33,841 nt of DNA. Source: Spirochaetales bacterium (lineage in GTDB: Bacteria; Spirochaetota; Spirochaetia; Sphaerochaetales; Sphaerochaetaceae). Below the pieces are notes generated by a model. It made no database searches. It was given only the letters and a program-made list of their open reading frames with translations, and was not told the origin of the DNA. Made by a program: the position numbers and the translations under genes. Below, piece by piece: positions 31,953 to 33,398 of the stretch (its first letter is position 1; every line of letters begins with the position of its first letter). The stretch covers positions 1 through 33,841 of the forward strand of contig JAAYQW010000101.1 of the NCBI GenBank assembly GCA_012519115.1, in the 5' to 3' direction.

Positions 31953-33011
31953 TTAGAAAGAATCGATTATTTCCTGATTCAATTCATCAAGAATCGCGAT
32001 TCCAAGGGCGATCGCTCCTCTAAGATCGTCAAGACTCGCCACCGAATAGTGGGTATGGGAATACCTGACCGGCACTCCGATGACGATCGAGGGAACACCC
32101 CCTCCGGCAAGGTGGATCGCTCCGGCGTTCGTCGCTCCTCCGGTGCGAACGGCGGTTTGGACCGGGATGTCGTACTTCTTGGCGACATCGAGGGCAAAGC
32201 GCTGGAAGCGGGGATTGGTGATCATCTTTGAATCGATGTAGCGGAGCATCGGACCTTTTCCGAGCACCGTTTGCTGCCGGTCAGCGCTTTCAAAGGTGTC
32301 ATCTGCGGGCGTTCCTTCAAAACAGATCGCCGCGTCCGGTTTAAGGGTGTTTGCGGCGACTTGAGCTCCTCTGAGTCCAACCTCTTCCTGGCTTGAGAAT
32401 ATGCCGACGGGGTTGACCGATAACGACTTCCCTCGGAGCGACTCCAGAATCTCAACGATTGCGACACACCCCAGGCGGTCATCAAACGCTTTCCCGAAGA
32501 TGATTTCATCATCTTTGAATTCAAGTTCCGCCTTGGGAACGATCGGATTGCCTGTTCGGATACCGAGGTCGTGGACTTCTTTCCGGGAGGACGCACCGAT
32601 ATCGATGTACAGGTTTTCGATCATCGGGGCTTGGTTGCGTTCGCTCTCCGTGATGTAGTGGGGCGGTTTGGAACCGACGATGCCGGCAATGTAGGTGCCG
32701 TCGACCGTTCGAACAAGAACCTGATGAGCGGGAATATTGCTTGTCACCCAACCACCGATCGTGGTGAACTCGATCAATCCGTTCGGCCGGATGAGGCGGA
32801 CCATGAATCCCACCTCGTCGGTATGGGCATCCAGCATGACGACGGGCTTGCCCTCTTTGGCCTCCGATCGATGGACATAGAGGTTGAGCATCGAGTCGAT
32901 CGATGAGGACCCGATCTCTTTGAGTTCCTCTTGCAGATAGAACACGACATCATCTTCGAAGCCGGAGACTCCGCCAAGATCACAGATGGTTTTTAGACGA
33001 TCACGATTCAT
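31953..33011 (-). CDS. M42 family metallo-aminopeptidase (FrvX/glutamyl aminopeptidase-like)
   Basis: A 352-residue cytoplasmic peptidase of the type that forms large tetrahedral particles and trims short peptides. Metal ligands and catalytic residues are in place: DAHTDEVG (His 63, Asp 65), KAFDDRLGC (bridging Asp), SSQEEVGLRGA (catalytic Glu and ligand), ICFEGTPADD (Asp) and RYSHTHYS (final His). ATG at 33011 follows AAGGAG at eight bases. It is preceded immediately by a strong terminator hairpin, so expression appears to depend on read-through. Confidence 0.93.
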   Translation of the reverse strand: MNRDRLKTICDLGGVSGFEDDVVFYLQEELKEIGSSSIDSMLNLYVHRSEAKEGKPVVMLDAHTDEVGFMVRLIRPNGLIEFTTIGGWVTSNIPAHQVLVRTVDGTYIAGIVGSKPPHYITESERNQAPMIENLYIDIGASSRKEVHDLGIRTGNPIVPKAELEFKDDEIIFGKAFDDRLGCVAIVEILESLRGKSLSVNPVGIFSSQEEVGLRGAQVAANTLKPDAAICFEGTPADDTFESADRQQTVLGKGPMLRYIDSKMITNPRFQRFALDVAKKYDIPVQTAVRTGGATNAGAIHLAGGGVPSIVIGVPVRYSHTHYSVASLDDLRGAIALGIAILDELNQEIIDSF

Positions 33012-33030
33012 CGATTCAACTCCTTATTCA

Positions 33031-33088
33031 TAATAAAAGACTGCAACCCAAAGGAAAGCGGGTGTGGATGGATCCTTTGGATTGCAAT
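33031..33088 (-). terminator. Strong intrinsic terminator (possible attenuator) directly before the M42 gene
   Basis: On the minus strand bases 33088-33073 pair with 33055-33040 over 16 continuous positions (two G-U), with a 17-base loop, then CTTTTATT. Only five bases separate the T-run from the AAGGAG ribosome site of the M42 gene. Confidence 0.8.
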
Positions 33089-33095
33089 CAAGAAG

Positions 33096-33163
33096 GGTGC
33101 AAGAGGCAGTGGCCAAGGCTGGTTGGGAGATATACGCCTATTGGGACAGCCACTACCTGCACC
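33096..33163 (-). ncRNA. Structured 5' RNA in the M42 leader
   Basis: GGTGCA (33163-33158) pairs with TGCACC (33101-33096). The adjoining GGTAGTGGC (33157-33149) pairs with GCCACTGCC (33113-33105; one G-U). A 3-base bulge on the 3' side separates the stems. The 35-base loop contains CCAATAGGCGTATATCTCCC. It matches no riboswitch class I recognise. The predicted transcription start is at its first base. It could be an aptamer feeding the downstream terminator, or a free-standing small RNA of about 130 bases. Confidence 0.6.
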
Positions 33164-33167
33164 TTTA

Positions 33168-33196
33168 TTTGTAAAGCCAGTATCGCCAGAAGTCAA
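33168..33196 (-). promoter_or_regulatory. Promoter of the M42 leader RNA
   Basis: On the minus strand TTGACT (33196-33191) and TACAAA (33173-33168) are 17 bases apart. It lies after the tRNA terminator and before the leader stem. Confidence 0.6.
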
Positions 33197-33205
33197 GAGT
33201 TCGAG

Positions 33206-33242
33206 GCAAAGAAAAGAGGGCTTCCCTTGATGGAAACCCTCT
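33206..33242 (-). terminator. Terminator of the tRNA operon
   Basis: AGAGGG/CCCTCT with an inner TTCC/GGAA stem (33215-33242), followed on the minus strand by TTTTCTTTG, five bases after tRNA-Glu. Confidence 0.85.
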
Positions 33243-33246
33243 AAAA

Positions 33247-33318
33247 CATCTCCTAGGGGGATCGAACCCCTGTTGACGGGATGAAAACCCGTTGTCCTAA
33301 CCACTAGACGAAGGAGAC
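33247..33318 (-). tRNA. tRNA-Glu (anticodon TTC)
   Basis: A 72-base cloverleaf. The acceptor stem GTCTCCT/AGGAGAT begins with a G-U pair; D-stem GTCT/GGAC, anticodon arm ACGGG-TTTTCAT-CCCGT, T arm AGGGG-TTCGATC-CCCCT, discriminator G as expected for Glu. CCA is not encoded. Confidence 0.95.
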
Positions 33319-33325
33319 ACGTTAT

Positions 33326-33398
33326 TGAGCCGCACAGGATTCGGACCTGTGACCCACGCCTTAAAAGGGCGTTGCTCTACCAACTGAGCTAGCGGCCC
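33326..33398 (-). tRNA. tRNA-Lys (anticodon TTT) with unusual T loop
   Basis: A 73-base cloverleaf: acceptor GGGCCGC/GCGGCTC, D arm with GCTC/GAGC, anticodon arm ACGCC-CTTTTAA-GGCGT, T arm ACAGG/CCTGT, discriminator A. The T loop is TCCGAAT, not TTCGAAT, so position 55 is C. CCA is not encoded. It lies 7 bases before tRNA-Glu in the same transcript. Confidence 0.93.

Follow-up and report, generated by a model that had tools for sequence, protein, structure and literature searches.

The window, by which we mean the whole stretch of 33,841 nucleotides analysed here (genome G000), carries on its minus strand a pair of tRNA genes, a predicted structured RNA composed of two hairpins and, directly behind it, an open reading frame that matches Peptidase_M42 (PF05343, E = 4.8e-91). 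The positions of these features are given in Table 1. A first-pass annotation had described a promoter, a two-part stem, a terminator-like hairpin and a short gap to the M42 gene, all of which are present on the minus strand, and had interpreted them as a candidate new regulatory RNA that controls M42. The promoter lies where that annotation placed it, and its TTGAC is found in 17/17 aligned sequences covering the site (window included), with TACAAA, which is weak as a -10 element, in 12 of these 17 (hand count). Because this -10 is poor, the promoter is missed by a consensus scan of the window and does not appear in its list.

Table 1. Features on and around the predicted small RNA (sRNA) gene in the window
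Feature	Position	Strand	Remarks
tRNA-Lys (TTT)	33326..33398	-	heads the usual upstream neighbourhood
tRNA-Glu (TTC)	33246..33319	-	between tRNA-Lys and the sRNA gene
terminator-like site after the tRNAs	33215..33242	-	11 pairs and T-rich tail; consensus match; separates the tRNAs from the sRNA gene
sRNA promoter TTGACT-17-TACAAA	33168..33196	-	TTGACT 33196-33191, TACAAA 33173-33168; by sequence only
sRNA body, 132 bases	33032..33163	-	end-to-end covariance-model match; predicted transcription start near 33163
hairpin 1, two-part covarying stem	33096..33163	-	stem 1 begins at 33163
C-rich motif TATCTCCCAA, invariant, loop 1	33123..33132	-	aligned copies and folds
motif ACCCTTCTT, invariant, linker between hairpins	33090..33098	-	best fold of the window copy pairs the first three bases
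hairpin 2, terminator-like, 17 pairs	33039..33089	-	folding and covariation
C-rich motif CCACACCC, invariant, loop 2	33060..33067	-	aligned copies and folds
T-rich tail	33030..33038	-	contains weak -10-like TATTAT (33035-33030)
M42 ribosome site AAGGAG	33025-33020	-	M42 start codon ATG at 33011
Peptidase_M42 gene	31953..33011	-	neighbour by position, no constant partner of the sRNA

The best fold of the window RNA has an energy of -56.7 kcal/mol compared with a mean of -33.2 for shuffled sequences (z = -6.7, 0/200 shuffles as good), and eight copies from relatives give z values of -3.1 to -6.2. No family of Rfam 15 reaches its gathering score over the RNA, either in the window, where only tRNAs are reported at that threshold, or in any of the 21 loci with a copy of it. 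When E values up to 10 are admitted, four chance-level matches appear around the RNA, of which mir-34 and bxd_1 are the sole ones to overlap it, on the other strand and far below cut-off. A known RNA class was rejected for lack of any gathering-score match, in line with the earlier statements that no known aptamer signature is recognisable and that this is a new structured RNA with a putative promoter of its own. Among the literature matches listed, judged by titles and the starts of abstracts, none deals with a Sphaerochaeta sRNA; the phyla covered in PMC8632094 include Spirochaetes, and Sphaerochaeta is not named in its text.

Sixty genomes, that of the window included, were searched at the nucleotide level; there were two strong matches elsewhere, in G023 and G011 (93 and 96% identity), which together with G000 we refer to as the window lineage, and many weak matches that are mostly due to chance. 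Weak matches in G005, G010, G013, G008, G024, G002 and G019 are situated 1.44-1.51 kb upstream of M42, and these loci have in common the promoter type, both hairpins and all three C-rich motifs. Stem 1 is misplaced in two early alignments, from one of which RNAalifold recovers hairpin 2 only, and the covariance model was therefore built from ten well-aligned relatives with the window left out; 20 copies were later aligned to this model. It detects one copy each in 21/26 Sphaerochaeta genomes and none in 113 other genomes of the family (139 searched), and matches the window copy with E = 6.5e-8. The five genus genomes in which no full match was found (G004, G007, G009, G015 and G022) are drafts, 68-92% complete; the match in G022 has an E value of 5.7, and a partial match in G007 (locus L101, E = 0.009) is merely a short hairpin with similar arms. 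The latter, whose arms (GGCTGCAA/TTGCAGCC) resemble those of hairpin 2, is located at about 1500-1536 on the minus strand of L101, near the end of an apparently unrelated gene.

With a second model made from the 20 aligned copies, 13 of the 394 genomes in a sample of the class match, all of them Sphaerochaeta, under strict filters that may lose weak matches. A pattern scan of named contigs yielded at least 12 stretches, from records under the names Sphaerochaeta (among them S. halotolerans 4-11), Sphaerochaetaceae, Spirochaetales or Spirochaetia; the closed genomes in which the first model had a match are not among them. Judged by these comparisons, the element looks like an undescribed two-hairpin small RNA family common to many Sphaerochaeta. 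A phage or virus origin was considered and rejected, as none of 50,697 phage records matches the sRNA and viral contigs contain no exact pattern match.

Base pairing is maintained across the copies. In an alignment of 20 copies (18 distinct; G011 is left out, being cut by a contig end) that was fitted to the covariance model, which favours pairing, and that includes ten copies from outside the model, 94.6% of the stem cells are paired (shuffled mean 86.3; 0/500 shuffles as high) and in 19/35 pairs both partners have changed (shuffled mean 7.4; 0/500 shuffles as high). Further pair types show a modest excess only (41, compared with 35.6 in shuffles; 4/500 shuffles). Pairing falls to 31-45% when the partner column is shifted by 1 to 3 positions. 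The first-pass annotation had named conservation and covariation of the stems in relatives that keep M42 as a check on its proposal: the stems are indeed kept and covary there, only they do not precede M42. The three motifs TATCTCCCAA, ACCCTTCTT and CCACACCC are identical in all 21 copies, and in the 20 folded copies each has a mean unpaired probability of at least 0.75, except for the linker of the window copy with 0.67, whereas the mean over the whole RNA is 0.42-0.50.

For the surroundings of the RNA, we observe a constant upstream side and a variable downstream side. Both tRNA genes are found upstream on the same strand in 18/21 loci, the exceptions being G016, where tRNA-Glu is found at a distance of about 1.4 kb, and the loci of G023 and G011, which are cut by contig ends. 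Downstream, a Na+/H+ exchanger gene on the opposite strand (PF00999 for the G005 copy) adjoins the RNA in 17/20 mapped copies, or 17/21 with G011, and in those 17 loci it ends near or inside hairpin 2, with M42 located beyond it. M42 follows the RNA directly in the window and G023 (2/20 mapped copies) and likewise in G011. The RNA of G017 has an aldehyde dehydrogenase gene at a distance of 326 bases and no adjoining M42; no ortholog of the window M42 was found in this genome, whose sole M42 match, grouping with the second copies (paralogs) of G013 and G019, is found 2.7 Mb into a 3.59-Mb contig (0.9 Mb if the contig is circular). G007 and G015 carry tRNA-Lys, tRNA-Glu and then M42 without the RNA between, and by eye their M42 genes have a TTGCAC...GGATAAT-like promoter. 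Since M42 adjoins the RNA in only 3/21 genomes, the RNA is no constant partner of M42, and the neighbourhood comparison as a whole leads us to reject the role as M42 leader that had been assigned to it.

The exchanger gene has a regulatory element of its own. A fluoride riboswitch (RF01734) precedes it in 16/17 Sphaerochaeta loci (L080-L090 and L093-L097), with none at gathering score in G006, and because of this the Sphaerochaeta exchanger is probably a fluoride-response gene. The window genome has an exchanger homolog (58% identity) on another contig, C16; none was found in the drafts G023 and G011.

A cis-acting attenuator or riboswitch of M42, in which a ligand or the translation of a leader peptide relieves the terminator hairpin, would account for the arrangement in the window lineage, where M42 starts within about 21 bases of the RNA end and only a poor promoter lies between. 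The claim that no promoter fits into this gap was nearly right, a poor 8/12 match (TTTCCT-16-TATTAT, by eye) overlapping the tail. In addition to the exchanger gene that separates RNA and M42 in most genomes, the lack of an M42 ortholog in G017 and the M42 genes of G007 and G015 that do without the RNA, three results from the RNA itself stand against this explanation. The terminator had been described as a 16-bp hairpin with a T-run; there is a hairpin, of 17 pairs, and a T-rich tail, and T makes up six of the seven bases after the stem in G000 and G023, which the tail of G011 resembles, but two to five in the other 18 copies (best G010 with five). A clear T-rich tail as read from these bases is thus, by degree, a property of the window lineage and weaker in the other 18 copies. 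The suggested antiterminator CCTTGG/CCAAAGG, when five of its pairs are forced, gives -20.6 kcal/mol, 36 kcal/mol worse than the best fold in a calculation for equilibrium only, and we rejected it. The 24-codon GTG frame that was offered as a leader peptide exists, but among the other 19 copies it has a counterpart only in G023 (2/20 copies in all; a 19-codon frame that begins at this column in G021 is unrelated), and the leader peptide was rejected for this lack of conservation. Attenuation of M42 is in our judgement very improbable.

A weaker form of the connection with M42 fares better. If the RNA is a stand-alone transcript, it could secondarily have become a source of M42 transcription in the window lineage by partial read-through, a possibility that is compatible with our preferred explanation and that we hold open while leaning somewhat against it. 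By eye, TGGATAAT or TGAATAAT occurs upstream of M42 in 19/19 orthologs outside the window lineage (for G005 the promoter scan lists a TATACA-16-GATAAT match there), whereas the window M42 lacks this TGRATAAT-type element and has only the weak TATTAT that overlaps the terminator tail; the same lineage, however, has the strongest T-rich tail (6/7), which should favour termination. More doubtful is a role as cis-antisense regulator of the convergent, fluoride-riboswitch-preceded exchanger, with the transcript entering the 3' end of that gene. The exchanger is convergent in 17/20 copies examined, its match overlaps the 3' end of the RNA by about 17 bases in G005, G013 and G019, and the T-run is poor in these three (3, 3 and 2 of 7). 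Yet the RNA is kept without an adjoining exchanger in G017, G023, G011 and the window, of which the window genome has its exchanger homolog on a different contig and the two drafts have none that was found, and the invariant parts are the loops and the linker rather than the overlap, so we give this explanation little credence. A small mRNA for a short peptide is more improbable still. A second frame, MYPSSGLQ..., opens with ATG-TAC-CCT-TCT at column 70 in 14/20 copies and, read from a GTG at column 67 (V-M/I-YPSSGLQ), is present in 16/20, but it is missing in G021, G016, G023 and G000, elsewhere closes after 13 codons (G003) or 20 codons (G005, G013 and G019) or runs on, and the sequence changes follow base pairing.

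The explanation that we consider probable is a stand-alone small-RNA gene of about 130 bases, located behind the tRNA-Lys/tRNA-Glu unit in Sphaerochaeta and acting on several mRNAs via its C-rich motifs. The putative sRNA is probably of the Hfq-free, trans-acting, C-rich-loop type, and it has the features of a trans-acting sRNA in that it possesses its own promoter, as judged from the sequence, a discrete structured body and a position independent of any one downstream gene. It would be transcribed from this promoter as a separate molecule, and its three C-rich motifs would pair with the G-rich Shine-Dalgarno regions of mRNAs, a pairing that may repress or tune several mRNAs without Hfq. The arrangement with the exchanger would represent the older state, from which M42 came, in the window lineage, to lie directly behind the RNA terminator; any read-through that M42 may gain there would be a derived state and not the function of the RNA. 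A more elaborate version, in which one RNA gene works both in trans and in cis, each of the three different invariant C-rich sites having its own set of mRNAs and the terminator being taken over for M42 read-through in one lineage, in a genus mostly without recognisable Hfq, appears unlikely to us.

An Hfq model matches 1/26 genus genomes compared with 5/14 control genomes. The one genus genome with a match (PF17209) is G004 (L103); this match may stem from contamination, or G004 may be the only member to have kept the gene.

Pattern searches with the complements of the three motifs (26 genus genomes for loop 1) revealed no convincing conserved target. The loop 1 complement TTGGGAGATA is found before an ATG 71 times in the 26 genomes, compared with 40 times for the backward control, and 14 of the 71 matches are the sRNA gene itself. 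A recurring match with AAGGAG, in G005, G019, G013, G009, G008 and G006 (no RNA copy was found in G009), looks by eye like the 3' end of a coding frame ('RWEITKEY...' followed by a stop) and was rejected as a target; for one of these six (L135) an open frame of over 150 codons is confirmed there, the sequence pieces of the others extending only a short way upstream. For the complements of the linker and of loop 2, the counts are likewise above those of the backward controls, but we draw nothing from them because the sRNA itself accounts for many of the linker matches and the control alters the codon context. The M42 leader of G001 contains TTGGGGGATA, which matches the complement of loop 1 if one G-U pair is allowed; we take this as chance because it occurs in only 1/25 M42 leaders.

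Rfam holds a model of LhrC, an sRNA of Listeria monocytogenes, and has no match over the Sphaerochaeta RNA. According to PMC4132741, LhrC carries CU-rich motifs at three kinds of site, namely a hairpin loop, the single-stranded stretch between hairpins and the loop of the terminator, and binds lapB mRNA, with Hfq being dispensable for the lapB effect. The Sphaerochaeta RNA likewise has three C-rich sites, in loop 1, the linker and loop 2, but the two RNAs are alike only in this layout, and they differ in that the Sphaerochaeta sRNA is single-copy in each of 21 genomes, compared with five copies of LhrC, in that its three motifs are unlike one another and in that it belongs to a different phylum. 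The C-rich (UCCC) Gram-positive sRNAs such as RsaE, RNAIII, SprD and FsrA, named in PMC4132741, have C-rich unpaired motifs of the kind that blocks Shine-Dalgarno regions, and loop 1 of the Sphaerochaeta RNA contains CUCCC, although no relation between them was detected. In the window lineage, and only there, the Sphaerochaeta RNA resembles attenuating riboswitches and peptide leaders in placing a promoter, a structured leader and a terminator ahead of a gene; it differs from them in having no constant downstream gene, no supported antiterminator and no conserved leader frame.

To our knowledge, few spirochaete sRNAs have been characterised in detail. For Borrelia burgdorferi, one such sRNA was counted in 2017 (PMC5216591), and fewer 3' ends with canonical terminators are reported than for the other species compared (PMC10319736). 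The lower number of canonical terminators in this spirochaete fits the poor T-runs of most Sphaerochaeta relatives, but we claim no kinship with the Borrelia burgdorferi sRNAs; in the 394-genome class sample the covariance model matches Sphaerochaeta only.

With this element the spirochaetes gain a candidate new RNA family that is described by a covariance model, is so far confined to one genus and offers testable pairing sites. Because the Hfq model matches only 1/26 genus genomes, the Sphaerochaeta sRNA would offer a simple example of Hfq-independent regulation by an sRNA. The locus also illustrates that a gene newly placed behind a terminator can be taken wrongly for a riboswitch partner. 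Inside the ortholog group, the branch that leads to the M42 proteins of G000, G023 and G011 is long (1.12 changes per column), which suggests either fast change or import of the gene in this lineage.
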